DNA from: an uncultured Olleya sp.
Lineage (GTDB): Bacteria > Bacteroidota > Bacteroidia > Flavobacteriales > Flavobacteriaceae
DNA length: 64,000 bases
Direction of reading: 5' to 3'
Assembly: GCA_947503885.1 (NCBI GenBank)
Contig: CANNFD010000009.1
Location: 62,001-126,000 of the forward strand
The notes beneath the pieces were generated by a model. It searched no databases, was not told the origin of the DNA, and saw only the letters and a list, made by a program, of their open reading frames with translations. Both the position numbers and the translations under genes were made by a program. Below, piece by piece: positions 1,071 through 57,072 of this stretch (within the stretch, counting starts at the first letter, position 1; each line of letters opens with the position of its first letter).

Positions 1071-2069
1071 ATGTATATCAAGAACTTAGCTCTTAAAGGA
1101 GGAGGCGTTAAAGGTATCGCTTATGTTGGTGCTTTAAAAGAATTAGATAAAGCGGGGCTTTATAAAGGGCTTGAGCGAGTCTCTGGTACGTCTGCAGGCG
1201 CTATAGTTGCGTTAATGATTGCATTACAGTTGTCGCCCTCTGAAATTGAAGGGTTGATGAGAAAGCTTAATTTTAAAGCGTTTAAAAGCGGATGGAATCC
1301 ATTAAGGATATTTACAAAATATGGATTGTATAGTGGTGATGAAATTCTAAAATTCATCTATAAGTGTTATGAAGCCTCTTCCAAAAACTTAACCAAAATA
1401 GCCACATTTGAAGATTTTAAAAACGCAGGCTGTAAAGAAATTATTGTTTTTGCCTCAGACCTTAATACACATAATATTTGCGAGTTTTCCTATTATAAAA
1501 CACCAAAATGTATCGTAGCAGAAGCAATTAGAGCTTCCATGTCAATTCCACTATTCTTCAAGGGATGGCAATTTTCTAATAATATTCCAAATAATCATAT
1601 TTATGTTGATGGTGGTGTTATGTTTAACTACCCATTGTCATTTTTTGATAAACCTCGTTTTCATGACAATAAGGTAGAATATCATCAAGAGTCTTTAGGT
1701 CTTTTTTTAGAGCCCAAAAAGGTCTATGAATTAAATCAAGATTATGACGAAACTGAATTAGCAACAGAGAAAATACATGGGTTTAAAAAGTTAGTTTATA
1801 AGGTCGAATTTAAATATGGAATGTGGATTTTTTTATACATAAAACATCTATTTGAAGCCCTAATGAACTCTCAAGATGTGGATTTATTTGAAGAGAGTCA
1901 CCTTGTAGATCGGACTATTTTTATTGACGATTTAGGGATATCTGCAACTAATTTTAATCTTACCGACCAAGAAAAAACTAATCTTGTTAATTCAGGTAGT
2001 GCTGGAGCAATAAAGTATTTTGAATATAAAAAACGACAACAAGACGCTAATCAACCAATTGTAAAATGA
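1071..2069 (+). CDS. Patatin-like phospholipase
   Basis: This 332-residue acyl-ester hydrolase of the patatin fold would cleave acyl chains from phospholipids or other lipids. It shows the glycine-rich oxyanion motif GGGVKG (residues 10-15), the nucleophile elbow GTSAG with Ser41, and the second dyad residue Asp180 in DGG (YVDGGVMFNYP), so the catalytic Ser-Asp pair is intact. There is no signal peptide, so the protein is probably cytosolic or peripherally bound to membrane. Its stop codon overlaps the next start (ATGA at 2066-2069), giving translational coupling with the membrane protein and, 4 bases after that, the DyP peroxidase. The three genes form one operon. Confidence 0.9.
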   Translation: MYIKNLALKGGGVKGIAYVGALKELDKAGLYKGLERVSGTSAGAIVALMIALQLSPSEIEGLMRKLNFKAFKSGWNPLRIFTKYGLYSGDEILKFIYKCYEASSKNLTKIATFEDFKNAGCKEIIVFASDLNTHNICEFSYYKTPKCIVAEAIRASMSIPLFFKGWQFSNNIPNNHIYVDGGVMFNYPLSFFDKPRFHDNKVEYHQESLGLFLEPKKVYELNQDYDETELATEKIHGFKKLVYKVEFKYGMWIFLYIKHLFEALMNSQDVDLFEESHLVDRTIFIDDLGISATNFNLTDQEKTNLVNSGSAGAIKYFEYKKRQQDANQPIVK

Positions 2070-3394
2070 GCCAGCAAAATCCATTAACGCTTATTACACC
2101 AATAATTCCTGAAAAAATAGGACAACTATATCAGTTGCTTTCTGATATGAAATATAAATTAGAAAAAGGAGAGCATGAGCTGTTTGAAAAGTCTAATAAC
2201 ATACATTATTTAAGATGGCTTATTATTGACGATAAAAATAGTGTGTTTTTTGAAGGCACTAAGCGGTTACCAAAATTAATTTTTTCTTCTAATTTTGATG
2301 GTAGTATAGAAGGGCATATCGATGATTTGTGTGGAGATATGGAGCACCATTTAATTGATCAGATTTATTCCTGCTGTGTAAATTTTCCAGATGTAGCCAA
2401 TCGTAACTTAATATCTAGAGCAGATTATTTAAAAAAATCAATGATTAAAGTCTCTGCCTTTTATAAAGGAAGTCCAGGAAGAAGTCTAGTACAAATTAGA
2501 CAAGAACAAGATTTAAGGATGTTTTTAAGGCAAAAATTAGACACCCAAAACTGGGAAGGTAAGTCCGCTTTACAAATACATAAACAATTAAAAAAAGAAG
2601 TGAAGTCAGAGTCCCGTTTTGAATGGTTAAAAGAGCCCTTTAAAATGCCTAAAATGAACTGGTTTAAGTTTGCTTTGCTTGTACTTGTATTACTTGCTTT
2701 GTTACCAATAATAATCATTTGGATATTAATTGTCGAGTTTGGTTATGAAAGAAAAGACGAATATTTTACTAAAACTAGAAGCGAGCTTGATCCTAAAAAG
2801 ATTAAAGTGCTAGAAGAGTATGAAGACTTGACAAGTGGTGAAGATTTAGGTAAAAGAAATTATGAAGGTGATTTGGTAAAAAATAAACAAATTAATTATC
2901 AAAATCAGTTTTCGCAATTAGTAGAAATGAAACCCGGTAAAGTCCGTTTGATTACATTTAAAGGGATGATGCTGTTTGCTAAAAATTTAATTCCTATAAA
3001 ATTTGTTGATGGCGAGCTAATGGGGATTCCAACCATACATTTTGCACGTTGGGTGTTGTTTGATGACAATAAACGGGTTTTGTTTTTTAGTAATTTTGAT
3101 GGAAGCTGGCAGCAATACTTAGGGGATTTTATTGATCAAAGTGGCTGGGGACTAACCGGTATTTTTTCTAACACAAAAGTGTTTCCTAAAACTAGGTTTT
3201 TATTTACTGGAGGAGCATACGACGAAGAGCATTTTTTAGCATGGAGTAGAGCCACAGAGCTATCCACACAAATATGGTACTCTGCTTATCCTAGTTTGTC
3301 AATTAAAAATGTAAACAACAATTCGCAAATAAGAGTGTTGTTTTCTAAAAACCTTAATAATAAAAAAGTATTAAAGCTTTTTCAATTAATATAA
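2066..3394 (+). CDS. Membrane-anchored protein with a duplicated unnamed domain, in the patatin-DyP operon
   Basis: I do not recognise a named family for this 442-residue protein. It has one clear transmembrane helix at about residues 201-223. The regions on either side carry copies of the same motif: residues 46 onward read IHYLRWLIIDD...FSSNFDGS, and residues 324 onward read IHFARWVLFDD...FFSNFDGSW, so a domain has been duplicated on both sides of the membrane anchor. The C-terminal copy is longer and better kept (SAYPSLSIKNVNNN near the end). From memory, proteins with this C-terminal type are seen beside DyP peroxidases in other bacteria; this should be checked. It overlaps the patatin gene by 4 bases and lies 4 bases before the peroxidase. 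Confidence 0.75.
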   Translation: MSQQNPLTLITPIIPEKIGQLYQLLSDMKYKLEKGEHELFEKSNNIHYLRWLIIDDKNSVFFEGTKRLPKLIFSSNFDGSIEGHIDDLCGDMEHHLIDQIYSCCVNFPDVANRNLISRADYLKKSMIKVSAFYKGSPGRSLVQIRQEQDLRMFLRQKLDTQNWEGKSALQIHKQLKKEVKSESRFEWLKEPFKMPKMNWFKFALLVLVLLALLPIIIIWILIVEFGYERKDEYFTKTRSELDPKKIKVLEEYEDLTSGEDLGKRNYEGDLVKNKQINYQNQFSQLVEMKPGKVRLITFKGMMLFAKNLIPIKFVDGELMGIPTIHFARWVLFDDNKRVLFFSNFDGSWQQYLGDFIDQSGWGLTGIFSNTKVFPKTRFLFTGGAYDEEHFLAWSRATELSTQIWYSAYPSLSIKNVNNNSQIRVLFSKNLNNKKVLKLFQLI

Positions 3395-3398
3395 TACA

Positions 3399-4820
3399 AT
3401 GGATACAATAGAACTAGAAGACGTACAAGGTTATATAATTAGAGCCTATGGAAACATGCAATATTCTAGGTTTACTTTGTTAAAAATTATTGACCCAATT
3501 GCAGCAAAACACTGGATAAATTCTATTAGCAGTCAATTAACCAATGCGTCAATTGTTGCTAAAGACCAATTGCCAGATACGTGTCTAAATATAGCTTTTG
3601 CACCTGCAGGTCTAAATAAATTAGGCTTATCACAAACAAATATTAATACATTTTCTCCACCGTTTAAGGAAGGGATGATTACAGAGCATAGAAGCAGTTT
3701 GTTGGGGGATATTGATAGTAGTTCGCCTGAACATTGGGTTTGGGGAGGATTAAAAACCGAAGCTGTTCATCTTATTTTATTAACTTTTGGAAAAGACGAA
3801 ACCACTTGTTTAAACTATTATAACACTTTAAAAACAGGATTTGAATCTCATGGATTAGAAGTGCAAAAAAATCTTGATGGTCTATCACTAAAAGATAATA
3901 AAGAGCATTTTGGGTTTAGGGACGGTATTGCACAGCCAACAATTAAAGGAAGCGGAAGGACAGGGCCAGAGCATAATTGTGTAAATCCTGGCGAGTTTAT
4001 TTTAGGCTATAAAAACAATTATAAAGTATATCCGGACTCTCCAACAATTTTAGAGCCACAAGGTAATATGAATTTATTATCCCCAAACCCTGCGCGACCA
4101 GGTAAAAAAGATTTAGGTAAAAACGGAAGCTATTTTATAGTCAGACAAATGCAACAAGATGTTGAGGGTTTTTGGGAGTTTATGAATGCACGTACAGCAG
4201 ATAAAGATGGTACGTTAAATGAAGCTGAAAGTATAAAGCTGGCTTCAAAAATGGTGGGAAGATGGCCTAGTGGTGCACCACTTTCTAAATTCCCAGATAA
4301 AGACCCTGGAGGAGCAAGTGATGAAAACGATTTTTTATACGCTAAAGATGATCCAAAAGGTTTAAAATGCCCTTATGGGTCACATTTAAGACGCATGAAT
4401 CCTAGAGATAATTTTGAAATGGATACCCCAAAAAAATCATTATTATTAAGTAATAGACACCGATTAATACGTCGGGCAAGAATGTATGGGGATCAAATTA
4501 TTGGGACGCCAACACATAATAAGCCTAAAGGCGAAGTAGGGCTGTATTTTAATTGTTTTAGTGCAGATATAAGCAGACAGTTTGAGTTTTTACAATACAC
4601 TTGGTCTAATTATCCAAAAATCAAACAATTATATAGTGATCCAGATCCTATAATTGGAGTGGTAGAAAACCCAGAAAAAGACGAAGAGCAACAGTTTACA
4701 ATACAAGGCGATCCAATAAATAAAACGGTTAAAAACTTAAAACGATTTGTTACTATAAAAGGTGGTGCTTACTTCTTTTTTCCTTCTATAACCACTATTA
4801 GATACTTTTGTAGTTTATAA
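3399..4820 (+). CDS. DyP-type heme peroxidase
   Basis: This 473-residue dye-decolorizing peroxidase family protein would use heme and H2O2 or organic peroxides. The diagnostic GxxDG motif is present as GFRDG at residues 172-176, with the distal catalytic Asp175. The proximal heme ligand is His329 in PYGSHLRRMNPR, and the following RLIRRARMYGD segment provides the conserved distal arginine region. No Tat or Sec signal is visible, so it is predicted to be cytosolic, and no encapsulin gene lies beside it. It is the third gene of the patatin operon. That context suggests lipid hydroperoxides as a substrate, which is inference. The family assignment is secure. Confidence 0.92.
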   Translation: MDTIELEDVQGYIIRAYGNMQYSRFTLLKIIDPIAAKHWINSISSQLTNASIVAKDQLPDTCLNIAFAPAGLNKLGLSQTNINTFSPPFKEGMITEHRSSLLGDIDSSSPEHWVWGGLKTEAVHLILLTFGKDETTCLNYYNTLKTGFESHGLEVQKNLDGLSLKDNKEHFGFRDGIAQPTIKGSGRTGPEHNCVNPGEFILGYKNNYKVYPDSPTILEPQGNMNLLSPNPARPGKKDLGKNGSYFIVRQMQQDVEGFWEFMNARTADKDGTLNEAESIKLASKMVGRWPSGAPLSKFPDKDPGGASDENDFLYAKDDPKGLKCPYGSHLRRMNPRDNFEMDTPKKSLLLSNRHRLIRRARMYGDQIIGTPTHNKPKGEVGLYFNCFSADISRQFEFLQYTWSNYPKIKQLYSDPDPIIGVVENPEKDEEQQFTIQGDPINKTVKNLKRFVTIKGGAYFFFPSITTIRYFCSL

Positions 4821-4838
4821 CCAAGTTATTGTTAATAA

Positions 4839-5423
4839 TCATTGGTTTAAAGTTAATAGTTGCTTTAAATGTTTTTGTTTTCTATGAGATTTATAACGTT
4901 TACAGAAATCAGTATGGTATTTATGGTTTTGTAAAAACTCAATTTGTATAGCGTCCCATGCTTTTCTAGTTAATTCTGGTTTAAAATGTTTCATCTCTTG
5001 GAATAATAAGTCACCAAAGGGTTTAAAGTTATTTGTAGATAGATATTCTAAATCGGCATCTGTAAATATCATTTCTAATTTAGACCTAGGGTTATGTGGT
5101 AACTTAGTAGCTCTAATTAAATCACAAACGACTTCAATTTCGTCTTTAGAAATATTATAATTTTTTAATTCATATTTTGCTATTCTACAACTTTCTTCTT
5201 CATGTCCATCATAGGTGTTGATGTAACCAGTATCATGAAATAAAGCTGCGATTTTTAATAATAACAACTCGTTTTTTGAAACCCCTTCTTTATTAGCGAT
5301 ATAAATTGTTTTTTCTAAAACATATAATGTGTGTTCGCTATTATGATATGTCAAATAACTTGGTAGCTTTTTATCAAGCATACTAATTATATGATTTTGT
5401 AATGATTTAAAACTTTTAAACAT
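4839..5423 (-). CDS. HD-domain metal-dependent phosphohydrolase
   Basis: This 194-residue HD-superfamily protein has His31 (HNSEHT), the His63-Asp64 doublet (ALFHDTGY) and a later Asp in IFTDADLEYL, which together would bind a metal. HD proteins of this size cleave nucleotides or other phosphate esters, and the substrate cannot be read from the sequence. It starts 2 bases after the stop of the yitT-like gene, so the two are co-transcribed. The 3' end faces the DyP gene tail to tail with an 18-base gap. The adenylate cyclase is two genes upstream on the same strand, so a role in cyclic nucleotide turnover is possible but unsupported. Confidence 0.8.
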   Translation of the reverse strand: MFKSFKSLQNHIISMLDKKLPSYLTYHNSEHTLYVLEKTIYIANKEGVSKNELLLLKIAALFHDTGYINTYDGHEEESCRIAKYELKNYNISKDEIEVVCDLIRATKLPHNPRSKLEMIFTDADLEYLSTNNFKPFGDLLFQEMKHFKPELTRKAWDAIQIEFLQNHKYHTDFCKRYKSHRKQKHLKQLLTLNQ

Positions 5424-5425
5424 AT

Positions 5426-6316
5426 CTAATGATGGCTTTTTCTACTAGTGACTCCGCCTCCCACTTCTTTTATATTTAAAACAAACATAAAAGCTCTAGG
5501 GTCTATTGCTTTAATAGCTTTTTTTATTTTATGTACTTCTAGCCTTGTTACAACAGTAACTACAATATCGCAATCGTGTTTAACGCCAAAATGACCTGGT
5601 AAATTACCACGTTCTCCTTTATAAACGGTAATGGCTTTGTTAAAATCATTAACGATAAGTTTTTTAATTATTTCAGGGTTTGGGGATATAATAGTTAGAG
5701 AAATCATTTTTTCAAAACCATCAACAACATAATCAGATACTTTTACAGCAGTAAAAAATGTTAAGATAGAATACATTGCTTTTTCTATACCTAAATAAAA
5801 AGCAATGACTAAAAATACTAGGGTATTAATGGCTATTATAATTTCTGAGGTGCTTAGTCCAAATTCTTTATGTGTAAAATCTGCAAGCACTTCTAAACCA
5901 TCAATTACGCCACCACCCCTAATTACAAAACCAATACCAAGTCCAACAAAAACACCTCCAAATGCTGCTGTTAAAAAATGATCGTTAGTAACAGTAGGTA
6001 CAGGTAAAAAACTAATTAAAATACCAAGTAGCAATAAAGAAAGTAATGAGTGGATACCGAAGTTTTTACTAATTTTATTATAACCAAGATATACAAACGG
6101 AATATTAAGTAGGATTAATGGGATTGCAACATTAATATGATAAAATTCGTGTACAAGTATTGAAATACCTAACAAACCACCATCTAAAAAGTGATTAGGT
6201 ATCATAAAGCCTTTAATGGCAATCACAGCAAATGTGACTCCAAATACTTTCCATAATATGGATTTAAGCGAAAAAATATTTTGTAAGTTTATTGGATCGG
6301 TGTTAGTTTTTTTCAT
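5426..6316 (-). CDS. YitT family membrane protein (DUF161 + DUF2179)
   Basis: This 296-residue protein has an N-terminal membrane part of about five helices (residues 20-185), including the conserved GGLLGIS, GLGIGFVIRGGGVIDGLEVLA and VSDYVVDGFE segments of the YitT/YczE group. It ends with a soluble C-terminal DUF2179 domain (residues about 205-290, ending KEVGGGVTSRK). Members are thought to be transporters, but the substrate is generally unknown. It is followed after 2 bases by the HD gene on the same strand. The catalase-like gene ends 62 bases upstream, so all four minus-strand genes from 9934 down may be transcribed together. Confidence 0.85.
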   Translation of the reverse strand: MKKTNTDPINLQNIFSLKSILWKVFGVTFAVIAIKGFMIPNHFLDGGLLGISILVHEFYHINVAIPLILLNIPFVYLGYNKISKNFGIHSLLSLLLLGILISFLPVPTVTNDHFLTAAFGGVFVGLGIGFVIRGGGVIDGLEVLADFTHKEFGLSTSEIIIAINTLVFLVIAFYLGIEKAMYSILTFFTAVKVSDYVVDGFEKMISLTIISPNPEIIKKLIVNDFNKAITVYKGERGNLPGHFGVKHDCDIVVTVVTRLEVHKIKKAIKAIDPRAFMFVLNIKEVGGGVTSRKSHH

Positions 6317-6378
6317 GCTGTTATAATTTATTAAAAGTAGTTTTCTGTAATACGAAATTTGAAAGATTTTAAATGAAG

Positions 6379-7986
6379 TTAATCACCATTTTCAATATAG
6401 GCTTTCGCGTTATTTAAGCTTGACTGCATAAACTTTTTAAACACAAAAGTTAAAATGAAACTTAGTATAAGTCTTGAAAATATGTTTTTATACTTAAACG
6501 TGTAGTCCCAAGTAATTCTGGTTTTATCATCTATAGTGTCAAACCAAACTTGCGCATAAGCAACTTTAGAAAAATGCCTTAATGCAGTTGTAAACTCTGT
6601 TATTCTGTAACTATAATTGGCATAAGGATTGTAACTTAAAAGCTCCTCTAAAGTAGACGCGTTATGGTCAAAATAGACCCTCCGTTTAGCGCCTATAAAA
6701 TCATAGGTTTTAGTGATTTTTTCTGTATATAAAGCAGCAGGTATCGAACCATGTTTTTTTAACCAATTAGGCAATTCTTCATCACTAGAAATAAATTGAA
6801 ACGCAATTTTATTTGAACAATTAACAGTTACTTGAGCAGTCCGACTTATTACTTGCTTTTTAGGAATTTCTACATTAATAATATCCATATTAAGATGATG
6901 TGTATCTGCTAAAAAATTAGCATCATCTTTAGGTTCAACTTCCGGGATTCCATTTTTTTTATGTCGATAACTAGACATATAATCATACACACGTTTTCTT
7001 GCCCGATTAAAGCTTCCTAATGGTCTATGTTCTGGTAGCGCATGCCAACTGTTAAAAGATAGATTTTCGCCAAATTCTATTTGTTTTTTGCTGTTAAAAC
7101 GCTGTGGCGGAATTTCTAAAGTGGCTAATTTTATATATTGAGAATCCCATGGTACGGTTGGATCCTCAATAGGCATGTTATTAGCGTCGGTTTGAAATTG
7201 CACAAAAAAATCAAACTTAATACAGTTATTGTGTAGTGTTTGCGCCATGTTATATCTTAAGTAATTTGGATCCTTAAGACTTTGGTTTAATATATAATTA
7301 TCGGGTGATGGTTTTATTAAATACTTAACTGCTTTGTCTAAAGCACCAAAACGATAGGGTTGTGTGCTCCAATAGGGTATGTTTAAAGGGTTGTCGCATT
7401 TAATAAAAGTGCCTATTAGCCTTTTTAAAATACTCCAGTGTTTTGGGTTTAAAAAATAAAGGGCAAGTTTTAATTTGCTTTTTGCGGTTGATGCTTTTAG
7501 TGTGCCTCTAAATTCTTTTATATTTTTTGAAAAGAACGTTTCACTACTCATTAATAAAAAATCGTGTGTTGTTTCGTCTTTTTTATTGTTTAGAATTTTC
7601 TCGCCTGGAACCCCTAAAAGTTTTATTGCAATCCCTCTAATATCCTTTTTTTTATCTGCTTGCGGTTTAGATTGTGAGTTGGAAAAACGCACCCAACAAT
7701 TATAAGTTTTAGGGTCTTTAAACACACCGACTTTTAAATTATTAGTCAGTTTTGATTCTATTATAAATTTTGCTTTTACACACCCATGCATTTTGGTGTG
7801 TATTTGACGTGGCATTTTTTTGTCTACATATAACCGGTCCATTTGTGCCTCCATTTGGTCAATCATTTCTTTAATGATTGCATCTTCATTAGCTAAAACG
7901 TATTCTTGCCCTAATTCTAAACTACTGGAGGGTTGTTTTTTCATGATTGTATGATTTGCATTTTTAGTATTACGTTTGGTTTTCAT
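6379..7986 (-). CDS. Catalase-like heme protein fused to a SRPBCC lipid-binding domain
   Basis: From the ATG at 7986 this is a 535-residue protein. Residues about 60-330 match the catalase-like family seen in y4iL-type proteins: TKMHG with candidate distal His67, WVRFSNSQSKP, DIRGIAIKLLGV, THDFLLMSSETFF and QPYRFG. Residues about 385-535 look like a SRPBCC (polyketide cyclase/START-like) hydrophobic-pocket domain, with a hydrophobic stretch near the end. The 5' end overlaps the cyclase stop (7970) by 17 bases, with GAGG before the ATG. A TTG at 8004 or an ATG at 7944 are alternative starts. Relatives of such catalases act on fatty-acid hydroperoxides, so a lipid substrate is plausible but inferred. 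Confidence 0.8.
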   Translation of the reverse strand: MKTKRNTKNANHTIMKKQPSSSLELGQEYVLANEDAIIKEMIDQMEAQMDRLYVDKKMPRQIHTKMHGCVKAKFIIESKLTNNLKVGVFKDPKTYNCWVRFSNSQSKPQADKKKDIRGIAIKLLGVPGEKILNNKKDETTHDFLLMSSETFFSKNIKEFRGTLKASTAKSKLKLALYFLNPKHWSILKRLIGTFIKCDNPLNIPYWSTQPYRFGALDKAVKYLIKPSPDNYILNQSLKDPNYLRYNMAQTLHNNCIKFDFFVQFQTDANNMPIEDPTVPWDSQYIKLATLEIPPQRFNSKKQIEFGENLSFNSWHALPEHRPLGSFNRARKRVYDYMSSYRHKKNGIPEVEPKDDANFLADTHHLNMDIINVEIPKKQVISRTAQVTVNCSNKIAFQFISSDEELPNWLKKHGSIPAALYTEKITKTYDFIGAKRRVYFDHNASTLEELLSYNPYANYSYRITEFTTALRHFSKVAYAQVWFDTIDDKTRITWDYTFKYKNIFSRLILSFILTFVFKKFMQSSLNNAKAYIENGD

Positions 7987-9934
7987 AAACCTCAGGATAG
8001 CCAATTTGCTCTAAAAGCATATCAAATCTTGGGTCGTTACGTAAAGGGTCAAATTCAGGTCCAAATTTTAGAGATACCATCCAAATATCTTTGTAAACAA
8101 TAGCTTTGTTGAGGTAAAAAAAAGCTTTGTCAAAGTCGTTTAAATAGGTGTAAATAAGCCCGATACCTAAAGGCGAAATATTAACCTGATCTTGGTTTGA
8201 TTGTAAATTATTTAGAATTGTAAACGCTTCTTCTTTTTCTCCGTTTTGTGCTAAAGCAATACTTAATGTTATCTGTGACCAGCCTAACCCATGTGCTAAT
8301 TCTACCGCTTTTCTAGCTTCTTTAACCGCTCTTGCGCTATCGTTTTCTAGCAAGCTATTGTATGCTAATAAACGTTGTGCGTCCGAGTGGTTAGGGATTG
8401 CTAGTAATAAGTTGTTTAATACCTCTCTAGCTTTAAAGGCTTGTCTCCCCCAGGTGTAATAACAGCTTAATAAAAACTGATAAAAATAGGATAGTGGATT
8501 GGTTTCCATAATTGTTAAAGTAGCATTTACAGCACTTTCAAAATCGCCTTTAACAAAAGCATAGTACCAGGGGTCCATTGTTACGCCTGTAAAGTAAAAA
8601 GGCACACTAGCCTGTGTTGCTTTTATGTATTGTTCTTTAGCTTTATGGAAGTCCCAATGAAACCAAAAATTAATCTGACCAATTAAAAAATGGGCTTCAG
8701 CAATTTCATTGTTAATGGATAGGGCTTTGTTTGCATAATGTTGTGCTCTTTTAAAGCCATCTCTAGGAGGATGGATTAAATACATTGTAAACAGAAAATG
8801 TATGTTTGCTAAAGCAGAATAAGCTTCGGCATAGTCAGGTTCTAATTCTATTGCTCTTGTATAGCAGGCAAGTGCTTTGTCAAATCCTTGAATAAATTTG
8901 TCTTCGTAATATCTTCCTTTCAGAAGCATCTCATAAGCTTCCATGTTTACAGGGTTTACTTTTTTGGAATTGTCTATTAAGGTTACTTTAAGTTTTTTTG
9001 AAATTTTTGAAGCAATATCATCTTGGATTTCAAAAATATCGATTAACTCTCTATCGTAGCGCTCTGCCCAGATTTGCCTATTTTCTGTTGTGTTGATCAG
9101 ATGCGCATTTATCCTTAATCTATTACCGCTTCTTCTTACGCTTCCTTCTAAAATATTATTAACGTTAAGTATTGTACTAATTTCTTTTTGAGATAAATCA
9201 CTGTTTTTAAATTGAAATGAAGAGCTTCGACCAACAATTTTCAAGTCCTTTACATTAGATAGGATAATTAAAATATCCTCTGCAATTCCTTCGCAAAAAT
9301 AATCTTGATCGGGGTCATTAGTCATGTTTAAAAAAGGCATGACTGCAATACTTTTTTTTAAGGTTTCTGTATTTTTAGGATCAAAACTGTCTTCTTTTAT
9401 ATCGATAAGGCTTTCAAACTCATCAGTAACTAATACTTGATAAATTTTCATGTCATCTTTGACATTTTTTAAATTTACTTCTCCTATAAATTTAGTTTCA
9501 ATACCTTTTTTATTGTAAAGATTGCTAAATACCGAATGTGTGATATGTGTCCCGCCAGAAGGCGCAGTAGGTTCTACTCTAGCAGCAATATTTACCCCAT
9601 CTCCAAAAATATCGCCATTTTCGTAAATTATTTCACTAAGGTGTATTCCAATTCTGATGTTTAGATTGGTGTTTTTTTTTGTTGCAAGATGTATTTCGGA
9701 AGCAGCAGAAACAGCAGCTGTGGCAGTAGAAAATATGGCTAGTACACCATCACCAAGTTCTTTAATAAACTCGCCCTCATATTTTTTTATGATTGCACGA
9801 TGGATTAATCTATTTTCATCAAGTGTTTTTAACGCTAAACCTTCATCTTTAGACATTAAAGAAGTAAAGCTAACAATGTCTGTAAACATGATACAGGCCA
9901 ATTGCCTTTTTTTTACTTGAGTATTGATTAACAT
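7970..9934 (-). CDS. Class III adenylate cyclase with TolB-like and TPR domains
   Basis: This 654-residue soluble protein has a cyclase homology domain at residues 11-170, with both metal-binding aspartates (Asp19 in FTDIVSF and Asp62 in KELGDG). It also has the transition-state pair Asn115/Arg119 (VNIAARVE) and the adenine-selecting pair Lys58/Asp108, so it should make cAMP rather than cGMP. Residues about 190-315 form the TolB/FlgO-like segment (IAVMPFLNMTNDPDQDYF...GRSSSFQF) common in such cyclases. The rest holds TPR repeats for protein contacts. It overlaps the catalase-like gene and therefore probably controls or serves the same pathway. No membrane or receiver domain is present. Confidence 0.9.
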   Translation of the reverse strand: MLINTQVKKRQLACIMFTDIVSFTSLMSKDEGLALKTLDENRLIHRAIIKKYEGEFIKELGDGVLAIFSTATAAVSAASEIHLATKKNTNLNIRIGIHLSEIIYENGDIFGDGVNIAARVEPTAPSGGTHITHSVFSNLYNKKGIETKFIGEVNLKNVKDDMKIYQVLVTDEFESLIDIKEDSFDPKNTETLKKSIAVMPFLNMTNDPDQDYFCEGIAEDILIILSNVKDLKIVGRSSSFQFKNSDLSQKEISTILNVNNILEGSVRRSGNRLRINAHLINTTENRQIWAERYDRELIDIFEIQDDIASKISKKLKVTLIDNSKKVNPVNMEAYEMLLKGRYYEDKFIQGFDKALACYTRAIELEPDYAEAYSALANIHFLFTMYLIHPPRDGFKRAQHYANKALSINNEIAEAHFLIGQINFWFHWDFHKAKEQYIKATQASVPFYFTGVTMDPWYYAFVKGDFESAVNATLTIMETNPLSYFYQFLLSCYYTWGRQAFKAREVLNNLLLAIPNHSDAQRLLAYNSLLENDSARAVKEARKAVELAHGLGWSQITLSIALAQNGEKEEAFTILNNLQSNQDQVNISPLGIGLIYTYLNDFDKAFFYLNKAIVYKDIWMVSLKFGPEFDPLRNDPRFDMLLEQIGYPEVYENQT

Positions 9935-41587: not shown

Positions 41588-41678
41588 GGGCGTTACCACA
41601 AGGGTCGCGTCATCCACTATATCTTTTTTGCGCATAAGCGCGCACAAAAAAGGATGTCGTTACTACCGCTAACGCAAC
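41588..41678. repeat. Nested palindromic intergenic element
   Basis: Three nested complementary arm pairs occupy the region: outer GCGTTA (41590-41595) with TAACGC (41670-41675), middle CATCC (41611-41615) with GGATG (41652-41656), and inner CTTTTTTGCGC (41623-41633) with GCGC and CAAAAAAG (41638-41652), loop ATAA. It is non-coding and lies between the permease and the CBS-type gene. The composition is much richer in G+C than its surroundings. From memory, similar GGGCGTTACC...TAACGC sequences are scattered between genes in Flavobacteriia. Confidence 0.6.
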
Positions 41679-41720
41679 CAACCAAAGTAAAGTCATAAAA
41701 TAAATTAATGTAGTTTTAAC

Positions 41721-55165: not shown

Positions 55166-55239
55166 GCCGATGTAGCTCAGCTGGCTAGAGCAGCTGATTT
55201 GTAATCAGCAGGTCGTGGGTTCGAGTCCCTCCATCGGCT
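55166..55239 (+). tRNA. tRNA-Thr (anticodon TGT)
   Basis: A 74-base cloverleaf with acceptor GCCGATG/CATCGGC, D loop AGCTCAGCTGGCTAGAG, anticodon arm CTGAT-TTGTAAT-CAG with TGT, and T arm GTGGGTTCGAGTCCC. First of four tRNAs before tuf. The 3' CCA is not encoded. Confidence 0.95.
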
Positions 55240-55313
55240 CAAAATAAAGTGACAACAAATTAATACTTGTTTAGCTTTGTTAAGTTCTTTAAAAGAGTGA
55301 AAAATTTAAAATT

Positions 55314-55395
<82 letters not shown>

Positions 55396-55443
55396 CTTTT
55401 TTTATAAAAAGAGGATTTTAAATTTAAAAGGATTTAAATAATT

Positions 55444-55516
55444 GCGAGAGTAGCTCAGTTGGTAGAGCGTCAGCCTTCCAAGCTGAATGTCGCCGGTTCG
55501 AACCCGGTCTCTCGCT
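55444..55516 (+). tRNA. tRNA-Gly (anticodon TCC)
   Basis: A 73-base cloverleaf with acceptor GCGAGAG/CTCTCGC, anticodon arm CAGCCTTCCAAGCTG (TCC), and T arm GCCGGTTCGAACCCGGT. The D arm is AGCTCAGTTGGTAGAGC. Confidence 0.95.
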
Positions 55517-55528
55517 CTAATTATTTAA

Positions 55529-55600
55529 GCCGGTGTAGCTCAGGGGTAGAGCGTTTCCTTGGTAAGGAAGAGGTCACGGGTTCAATTCCCGTCATTGGCT
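55529..55600 (+). tRNA. tRNA-Thr (anticodon GGT)
   Basis: A 72-base cloverleaf with acceptor GCCGGTG/CATTGGC (two G:U pairs), anticodon arm TTCCTTGGTAAGGAA (GGT), and T arm CACGGGTTCAATTCCCGT. Last tRNA before tuf, 68 bases upstream of its start. Confidence 0.95.
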
Positions 55601-55668
55601 CTGATAAAAGACATAAAAATTAAGAATACACTAATATTATTATATAACTAAGATTAAATTATTAAAAC

Positions 55669-56856
55669 ATGGCAAAGGCAACTTTCGATCGTTCAAAACC
55701 ACACTTAAATATTGGTACAATTGGACACGTAGATCACGGTAAAACAACTTTAACTGCTGCTATTACTAAAGTATTAGCTGATGCAGGTTTATCAGAAGCA
55801 AGATCATTCGATCAGATTGATAACGCTCCAGAGGAAAAAGAAAGAGGTATTACAATTAATACATCACACGTAGAATATTCAACAGCAAATCGTCACTATG
55901 CACACGTAGATTGTCCAGGTCACGCCGATTACGTAAAAAACATGGTAACTGGTGCTGCACAAATGGATGGAGCTATATTAGTAGTAGCTGCAACAGATGG
56001 TCCAATGCCACAAACTCGTGAGCACATCTTATTAGGTCGTCAAGTAGGTATCCCAAGAATCGTAGTATTCTTAAACAAAGTGGATATGGTTGATGATGAA
56101 GAGCTTTTAGAATTAGTTGACATGGAGGTTAGAGAATTATTATCATTCTATGAGTATGATGGTGATAATGGACCTGTAGTTTCTGGTTCTGCTTTAGGAG
56201 CTTTAAATGGTGAGCAAAAATGGGTTGATACAGTAATGGAGTTAATGGAAGCTGTAGATGCTTGGATTGAAGAGCCAGTACGTGATATGGACAAGCCTTT
56301 CTTAATGCCTATTGAAGATGTATTTTCTATTACAGGTCGTGGTACAGTAGCAACTGGACGTATCGAAACTGGTGTAGCTAATACTGGAGATCCAGTTGAG
56401 ATCATCGGTATGGGTGCTGAAAAATTAACTTCTACTATTACAGGAATTGAAATGTTCCGTCAAATATTAGACAGAGGAGAAGCAGGAGATAATGCAGGTA
56501 TCTTATTAAGAGGTATTGAGAAGTCTCAAATCTCTAGAGGTATGGTAATTACTAAGCCTGGTTCAGTAACACCACATGCTAAATTTAAAGCTGAGGTTTA
56601 TATCCTTAAAAAAGAAGAAGGTGGACGTCACACTCCATTCCATAATAACTACCGTCCTCAGTTCTACGTACGTACAACTGACGTAACAGGAAACATTGCG
56701 TTACCTGAAGGAGTAGAGATGGTTATGCCTGGTGATAACTTAACAATCCACGTTGATTTAATTCAGAAAATTGCAATGAATGTTGGACTACGTTTCGCTA
56801 TACGTGAAGGTGGTAGAACAGTAGGTGCAGGTCAGGTAACTGAAATTTTAGACTAA
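55669..56856 (+). CDS. tuf: Elongation factor Tu
   Basis: This 395-residue GTPase carries aminoacyl-tRNA to the ribosome. The G1 motif GHVDHGKT, G2 region [10 protein letters not shown]3 DCPGHADY, G4 NKVD and G5 SAL are all present, followed by domains II and III ([44 protein letters not shown]). It is transcribed with the tRNAs on both sides; the order tRNA-Thr, Tyr, Gly, Thr, tuf is widely conserved. Confidence 0.99.
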
Positions 56857-56917
56857 ATTATAGTTTATAAAATATAGAATTAAGGCGCTTCATATCGAAG
56901 TGCCTTGATTCATATTT

Positions 56918-56990
56918 ACGGGTTTAGCTCAGTTGGTAGAGCACTGGTCTCCAAAACCAGGTGTCGGGAGTTCGAGTCTCTCAACCCGTG
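56918..56990 (+). tRNA. tRNA-Trp (anticodon CCA)
   Basis: A 73-base cloverleaf with acceptor ACGGGTT/AACCCGT, anticodon arm CTGGTCTCCAAAACCAG (CCA), and T arm CGGGAGTTCGAGTCTCTC. The discriminator is G. It sits between tuf and secE as in many bacteria. A hairpin AAGGC...GCCTT (56882-56906) lies just before it and may be a processing site. Confidence 0.95.
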
Positions 56991-57072
56991 CAACTTAAAA
57001 TAAACGGAATAAGTTTGTTTTATAAAAATATTAAAGTTGTCCGCTCCAAAGGAAGACATAAAATAAAATAAC

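Follow-up and report, generated by a model that had tools for sequence, protein, structure and literature searches.

Why should genes for a patatin-like phospholipase, a membrane protein of no named family, a DyP-type peroxidase, a catalase-like fusion protein and a cyclase lie together at 1071-9934 of a stretch of DNA from an uncultured Olleya sp. (contig CANNFD010000009.1, positions 62,001 to 126,000; all 64,000 nucleotides are here called the window)? A first-pass annotation had suggested an undescribed module acting on lipid peroxides. We find that the unnamed protein, hereafter X, is more than the membrane protein of that annotation: no other partner accompanies the DyP as constantly. The two form the core of a conserved group that usually includes a catalase-related protein or a cytochrome P450, and we put the chances that this group is an oxidative module acting on fatty acids at about even.

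On the forward strand of the window, the patatin gene (1071..2069, 332 amino acids, PF01734 at E 5.9e-31) is followed by X (2066..3394, 442 amino acids) and the DyP (3399..4820, 473 amino acids; PF21105, PF20628 and TIGR01413, all above cut-offs). By open reading frame coordinates, the patatin and X genes overlap by 4 bases and X is separated from the DyP by a gap of 4 bases. A second group on the reverse strand runs toward them, including a protein that joins a catalase-related domain to one of the SRPBCC/Bet v 1-like kind (6379..8004) and a cyclase-TPR protein (7970..9934), which confirms the two facing gene groups of the earlier description.

A scan of Bacteroidota genome contigs for X, made with short exact peptide patterns that miss distant relatives, returned 32 related loci; a 33rd row of the locus table (L033) is the window's own genome and was not counted. 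The DyP directly follows X in 31 of the 32, and at the remaining locus (L020) the contig ends. The DyP of L005 is cut by a contig end and that of L026 has a broken frame. A cyclase protein is found near X in 24 loci, a catalase-like protein in 21, and a patatin 0-32 bases upstream of X in 12, while a GST-P450 fusion (4/32) and a separate SnoaL-like protein (7/32) are less frequent. The HD-domain and YitT-family proteins, present in 3 and 4 loci, were rejected as core parts. The proposed module stands for its core of X and DyP, which is spread more widely across phyla than had been proposed, and its HD and YitT members are minor. We regard the X-DyP module as very likely real. In four loci (L010, L023, L024 and L026) the neighbourhood of the catalase-like gene, 3-9 kb from X, holds a row of genes for a SIR2-TIR protein, an nSTAND ATPase and a patatin of a second kind, which has the look of a defence-type cassette.

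We compared these linkages with chance expectation in 14 chosen genomes, 13 behind the 32 loci and the window's own. These genomes each hold 0-8 class III cyclases (48 in total), 0-2 catalase-like proteins (15 in total) and 3-9 patatins (76 in total). Thirteen of the 14 have a cyclase no more than 10 kb from X, against 0.23 expected; the other genome, that of L012, has no cyclase. In 12 genomes a catalase-like gene is as close, against 0.07 expected; the exceptions are the genome of L012, which has none and has a P450, and that of L029, where the gene is located elsewhere. The patatin is tight with X in nine genomes. The p-values assume independent genomes, and seven of the 14 come from one family or its listed genera; because several of the genomes are close kin, the formal values are far too small, although the direction is still safe. 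The gene-neighbourhood comparison thus bears out the expectation that the core genes, fused forms included, co-occur in other genomes far beyond chance. X itself is rare. It was found in 1 of 395 genomes of the phylum sample (the window's own) and in 5 of 299 of the family sample, the window's own included, and the one genome of the same genus listed in the family sample lacks it.

Relatives of X adjoin a DyP in Proteobacteria, Deinococcota, Actinomycetota, Acidobacteriota and Cyanobacteria. Searches of plasmid records by tblastn gave 45 X records with the C-terminal half of the window's protein and 51 with a Sphingomonas X, for a union of 55, and a DyP is listed within 3 kb of X in 45 of these. 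The other ten are seven Sulfitobacter records (the one opened, L035, encodes a P450-X-DyP protein), two Streptomyces records (in L056, the one opened, the DyP adjoins another copy of X) and one S. medicae record, which is without a DyP among the matches listed. The reverse comparison used 68 listed DyP records (60 of 81, with 8 added), in 45 of which BLAST placed X within 3 kb. Twelve of the other 23 were opened, where an X profile was positive in seven (L054-L059 and L061, the weakest having E 2e-8 in the first pass of that search) and negative in five (L060, L062-L065). Because the plasmid rows are mostly records of related bacteria, they are not independent counts. Two further neighbours were seen. 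A protein of about 340 amino acids without a Pfam match adjoins X and DyP at L054:7371-8399 and L041:6478-7491, with 61% identity between Nostoc and Streptomyces, and a DUF4331-SRPBCC fusion adjoins an X-X-DyP row at L046:8685-9932, so that SRPBCC recurs with another partner.

The linkage of X and DyP is conserved, the two are also found fused, the third component is exchanged between loci, and the heme-ligand residues are retained in most members. P450, X and DyP domains occur in one protein in Pararhizobium (L034), Sulfitobacter (L035) and Novosphingobium (L036). The DyP matches of L034 and L035 barely pass Pfam (20.2 against 20 bits), and the P450 match of L036 lies below its cut-off (20.2 against 22.8 bits), the same region matching the P450 of L012 at E 9e-20. 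In Skermanella the same three are neighbouring genes. X and DyP stand together with a catalase-family gene in Rhodococcus, Deinococcus, Agrobacterium, Microvirga, Sphingomonas, Acinetobacter and Paracoccus. The catalase-like protein and the P450 never co-occur in the 32 Bacteroidota loci (21 and 4 loci, respectively). The idea of strict exclusivity was dropped because Methylorubrum populi has a P450 and a catalase-family gene in one row. The P450 label requires at least four changes on the DyP tree. That a catalase-like or P450 partner belongs to the module is, in our judgment, highly probable.

X would be a new protein family. The window protein matches nothing in Pfam up to E 1, nor in NCBIfam or PADLOC (to E 0.01), and sequence comparison with the PDB gave no meaningful hit (best E 0.75). 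Twenty-seven X domains compared with Pfam gave at best E 0.014 (Pectate_lyase22, four members) and E 0.051 (ABM, one member), and with NCBIfam at best E 0.074; no known family was matched by sequence. The repeated domain noted in the first pass is real, since a profile built from C-terminal halves and small X proteins also matches the N-terminal half of four X proteins outside its training set (domain E 2.6e-14 to 1.5e-24). Two alpha+beta copies flank one long helix predicted to be hydrophobic (residues 199-230, 2660..2755, from the AlphaFold2 (AF2) secondary structure and the sequence), which is likely a membrane anchor. The better conserved C-terminal copy (2837..3391), matched by profiles across phyla, carries the motif T-x-H-x-x-R ... 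DG-x-W-x-x-Y-x-x-DF in alignments. The AF2 model (predicted local distance difference test score, pLDDT, 83.9; predicted template modelling score, pTM, 0.83) shows a modest resemblance to alpha+beta barrels. The best Foldseek matches are the ABM/SchA-like barrels WhiE-ORFI (9lmn, E 1.6e-3) and Abx(+)O (9ltx, E 0.012), at 6-9% identity; no match reached 0.001, and the top three have target-normalised template modelling scores of 0.45-0.57. X differs from these barrels in its membrane-type helix and its own motifs, and the Foldseek E-values are weak.

The DyP domains, GXXDG motif, proximal His and distal Arg that define DyP membership are all present in the window protein, with GFRDG at 3912-3926, a proximal-type His at 4458-4460, and the segments NRHRLIRR and VGRWPSG. 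Its nearest PDB entry is 8RE3 (E 2.9e-51). The DyP of the Deinococcus radiodurans locus (L040), where X, DyP and a catalase-family gene stand together, is DrDyP itself (8RE2/8RE3 matched over the full length), so the closest solved relative of the window DyP comes from such a group; its fifth GXXDG residue, in a difference from the window protein, is Met. As far as the available text of its paper shows, DrDyP was studied alone, and neither the word "operon" nor "catalase" is found in the main text (PMC10820274). DrDyP is reported there to be inactive at neutral or physiological pH, and its authors speculate that partner proteins might matter. Which natural substrates DyPs have is an open question in the field, DrDyP included.

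A tree and motif table of 54 DyPs, 49 of them X-linked, were used to place these enzymes. Outside both are L020, which has no DyP, L005, whose DyP is truncated where its contig stops, L026 with its broken frame, the near copies L011 and L013, and L033, a repeat of the window gene; L048-L051, L066 and L067 are likewise not included, and in the motif table the GXXDG segment of the L035 fusion is not covered. A branch with support 98/91 sets the five DyPs without X apart from the rest, so X seems to mark one DyP lineage. Several long branches leave the deep order of the tree unsure.

The catalase-like half of the fusion has no convincing Pfam match and was recognised by sequence through PDB entry 3e4w (E 5e-5). 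In the structure model of the whole fusion protein (pLDDT 84.4, pTM 0.80), the closest fold is 3e4y (E 5e-13), followed by true catalases and the coral allene oxide synthase 1u5u (E 8e-11). The best sequence and fold match is therefore the MAP 33-kDa catalase-related protein (3e4w, 3e4y), which differs in having no SRPBCC domain. The SRPBCC part (~6391-6840, PF10604, Polyketide_cyc2) resembles Bet v 1/PR-10 proteins, PYL receptors and the aromatase/cyclase BexL in fold. Tyr340 (6985-6987) aligns with the catalase heme ligand, a Tyr kept in all 31 aligned catalase-like proteins, and the distal His is kept in 30; the window protein thus has both core residues of catalase-related enzymes of the allene oxide synthase and hydroperoxide lyase-like kind. 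Translation of the fusion probably does not begin as early as the TTG at 8004; the ATG at 7938 agrees with relatives and would abolish the overlap with the cyclase gene. A related stretch occurs without X on pNGR234a of Sinorhizobium fredii NGR234 (L053), where a relative of the catalase half, a hypothetical protein, a di-heme peroxidase and a patatin-like gene stand in a row.

The cyclase-TPR protein has a class III cyclase domain (~9434-9913, PF00211 at E 4e-16) followed by a TPR region; a FlgO-like Pfam match between the two is weak (E 0.016, below cut-off). The domain carries the class III catalytic motifs FTDIVSF, KELGDG and DIFGDGVNIAARV, which we take to hold the residues for metal binding, purine selection and the transition state that are typical of adenylate cyclases. 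Among the 24 loci with a cyclase protein, six have the window's 650-amino-acid type and 18 a kinase-AAA-GAF-cyclase protein of 1,700 amino acids, never both. The cyclase domain was seen in 17 of the 18 large proteins (the contig of L020 ends before it), and the gene of L026 is in two pieces. Outside Bacteroidota, a relative of the window cyclase-TPR protein lies directly upstream of the Pararhizobium fusion (28% identity over 431 amino acids) with different purine-selecting residues; at the same upstream place Sulfitobacter and Novosphingobium have TPR proteins, that of Novosphingobium bearing the annotation SARP regulator. In Bradyrhizobium a relative of the large protein is divergent from X (28% over 1,381 amino acids, compared without the last ~310). 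Of the proposed cyclic AMP (cAMP) signal with an HD phosphohydrolase as its opposing step, the cyclase linkage held (24/32) and the HD counterpart did not (3/32); because the HD gene is only occasional, such opposing steps find little backing. A signalling role for the cyclase within the module is a tentative proposal that falls somewhat short of an even chance.

We lean toward a lipid substrate. It is suggested by the patatins, oleate hydratase, thioesterases and a hydroxyacyl-CoA dehydrogenase type nearby. All patatin motifs are present in the window protein: the Gly-rich oxyanion segment GGGVKG, GTSAG (Ser41) and DGG (Asp180). Its top NCBIfam match is a type IV secretion effector patatin (71 bits against a 1000-bit cut-off), taken as general patatin similarity. 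By annotation names, oleate hydratase, thioesterases and an acyl-CoA dehydrogenase lie near part of the loci. A 3-hydroxyacyl-CoA dehydrogenase type adjoins the Agrobacterium module and was found in 18 plasmid records at E < 1e-60; ten of the 18 are also X records, with a gap to the module of 63-1,300 bases. All 14 module genomes have fatty-acid desaturases, against 5 of 14 control genomes. Pfam scans of the module proteins revealed no lipoxygenase or cyclooxygenase-like domain. Lipoxygenase (PF00305) was found in none of the 14 genomes, but no control genome was positive either, so its absence is not usable. Of the earlier lipid-peroxide reading, the lipid part is indirectly favoured by the patatin and the fatty-acid genes near part of the loci, and the choice between detoxification and synthesis is undecided.

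In the scheme we propose, the patatin of the window locus would free an unsaturated fatty acid from membrane lipid. X, which is predicted to be an alpha+beta barrel and in Bacteroidota is probably anchored in the membrane, would hold this substrate and dock on the DyP. Oxidation by the DyP would yield a hydroperoxy or hydroxy product, which the catalase-related protein or P450 would then rearrange, cleave or reduce. What results would be bound or cyclised by the SRPBCC domain, or by a SnoaL-like protein encoded separately, and the class III cyclase protein would regulate the module or sense its output. The order of these steps is tentative and could well be otherwise, and an oxylipin-type cascade with the DyP acting first is possible, if doubtful. 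More speculative is that such genes make up a third, DyP-based oxylipin-like route in bacteria, in which X and DyP would oxygenate the fatty acid, the catalase-related protein or P450 would form allene oxides, aldehydes or epoxy alcohols, and the SRPBCC domain would catch the product, with coupling to cAMP.

Several observations weigh against fatty-acid oxidation by such a module. The fatty-acid neighbours are known at the level of annotation, at part of the loci only, and some loci have none. The patatin is tight with X in only 12 of the 32 loci, and seven, some on short contigs, have neither a catalase-like protein nor a P450. Of the 49 X-linked DyPs, five (L047, L054, L055, L059 and L061) have no aligned proximal His, and L017 and L023 have Glu in place of the GXXDG Asp; because of these altered residues, some DyP members may be inactive or different. 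Coral cAOS has the distal residues Thr66 and Asn137, as given in the available part of PMC5617202, and this allene oxide synthase signature is not that of the module proteins. The Thr is found in 0 of 31, with I, V, A, L or Q instead, and in our own alignment 13 of the 14 SRPBCC-fused rows have Ser or Thr at the putative Asn position (Ser in the window protein); the catalase-like protein of L007 is also without the distal His. In plasmid records the catalase family adjoins X in 19 of 60 listed and has no X match in 41 (a further 56 records lie beyond the listing), and because of these 41 the family evidently works without X too. The module P450s resemble ordinary bacterial P450s, which leaves the idea of a CYP74-type P450 unsupported. 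The row in M. populi (ferredoxin, FAD-dependent oxidoreductase, P450, catalase-family gene, X and DyP) suggests a monooxygenase. Finally, some neighbours are iron-related: a TonB-dependent receptor and Fur near the Granulicella module (L047:8838-12435), and, downstream of the Sulfitobacter fusion (L035:10750-13187), genes for transferrin-binding-protein-like products and for surface lipoprotein assembly.

The same residues and neighbours bear on the alternatives. In 30 of 31 proteins the distal His is preceded by a catalase-type hydrophobic residue and not by the coral Thr, which would suit detoxification, with the DyP and catalase-like protein destroying stress-formed lipid hydroperoxides and the patatin excising damaged acyl chains. 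The patatin adjoining heme enzymes and the presence of the module in D. radiodurans agree with this; however, the swap of the catalase-like protein for a P450, even within one fusion, and the rare and patchy presence of X (1/395 and 5/299 genomes) fit specialised metabolism better, and we consider detoxification unlikely. The DyP might instead oxidise a non-lipid xenobiotic, aromatic or carotenoid substrate. DyPs act on beta-carotene and aromatic compounds in the available text of PMC10820274, and an ABA4-like gene lies near the DyP in three of the 32 loci, all among the four with a GST-P450 fusion, itself a pointer in this direction. The patatin, oleate hydratase, thioesterase and hydroxyacyl-CoA dehydrogenase neighbours nevertheless indicate acyl chains, which makes a non-lipid substrate quite unlikely.

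Iron-related neighbours would be expected if the DyP were a deferrochelatase and X an IsdG-like heme-degrading barrel, and the modelled fold of X resembles, modestly, the broad barrel superfamily that includes IsdG and DyP (PMC4835899, in its available part). Such neighbours occur at the two loci above only, the best Foldseek matches of X are polyketide enzymes and not IsdG, and the catalase-like protein, P450 and patatin would be left unexplained, so that heme or iron handling appears improbable. Anti-phage signalling of the Pycsar or CBASS type, with the cyclase acting through the patatin or a membrane effector, might be read from PADLOC matches to a phospholipase effector (E 7e-16) and a Pycsar cyclase (E 4e-6, a weak match) and from the SIR2-TIR and nSTAND genes of 4/32 loci. 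Against the CBASS_lipase model, whose cut-off is 200 bits, the patatin reaches 43, the cyclase has residues that we take to be typical of adenylate cyclases, and X, DyP, HD, YitT and the catalase-like protein have no PADLOC match. A defence system was accordingly rejected as first choice and is very improbable.

Oxidation of fatty acids by X, DyP and a second heme-type enzyme would have parallels in known fusions. Fungal dioxygenase-P450 (DOX-P450) fusions are linoleate diol and allene oxide synthases in which an oxidising enzyme is joined to a P450 (available text of PMC13049297), and coral lipoxygenase-allene oxide synthase fusions join one to a catalase-like protein (PMC5617202, in part). 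As far as these sources describe them, the likeness is an oxidising enzyme with a P450 or catalase-like partner, and both kinds of partner occur here with one DyP lineage; the difference is that the oxidising partner here is DyP with X, its activity being predicted. No paper describing the X-DyP linkage was found in the open-licence PMC literature, which does not prove its absence from print. The constant partner, the fusions and the exchangeable third enzyme offer candidate partners for DyP and make the substrate question testable in ordinary laboratory bacteria, the most testable claim being that the partner these DyPs have been missing is X. A DyP-based oxylipin route, if true, would explain why DrDyP-like enzymes appear inactive when studied without X. 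X, often together with a second heme-type enzyme, travelling with a little-understood DyP across several phyla gives a concrete lead on the role of DyP, most likely in fatty-acid oxidation.

The remaining genes of the window locus are accessory. An HD-domain protein of 194 amino acids (4839..5423, PF01966 at E 1.2e-11) and the YitT-family membrane protein (5426..6316, PF02588 at E 8e-52) lie on the reverse strand between the DyP and the catalase-like gene. Among the window proteins, Pfam cut-offs were passed by Patatin, DyP_N, Dyp_perox_C, HD, YitT, Polyketide_cyc2, Guanylate_cyc and TPR. Promoter and terminator scans gave no excess above shuffled sequences. Elsewhere in the window, a Flavo-1 RNA lies on the reverse strand at 41599-41687 (44.5 bits against an Rfam gathering score of 42), and five tRNA genes (Thr, Tyr, Gly, Thr and Trp) lie at 55166-56991.

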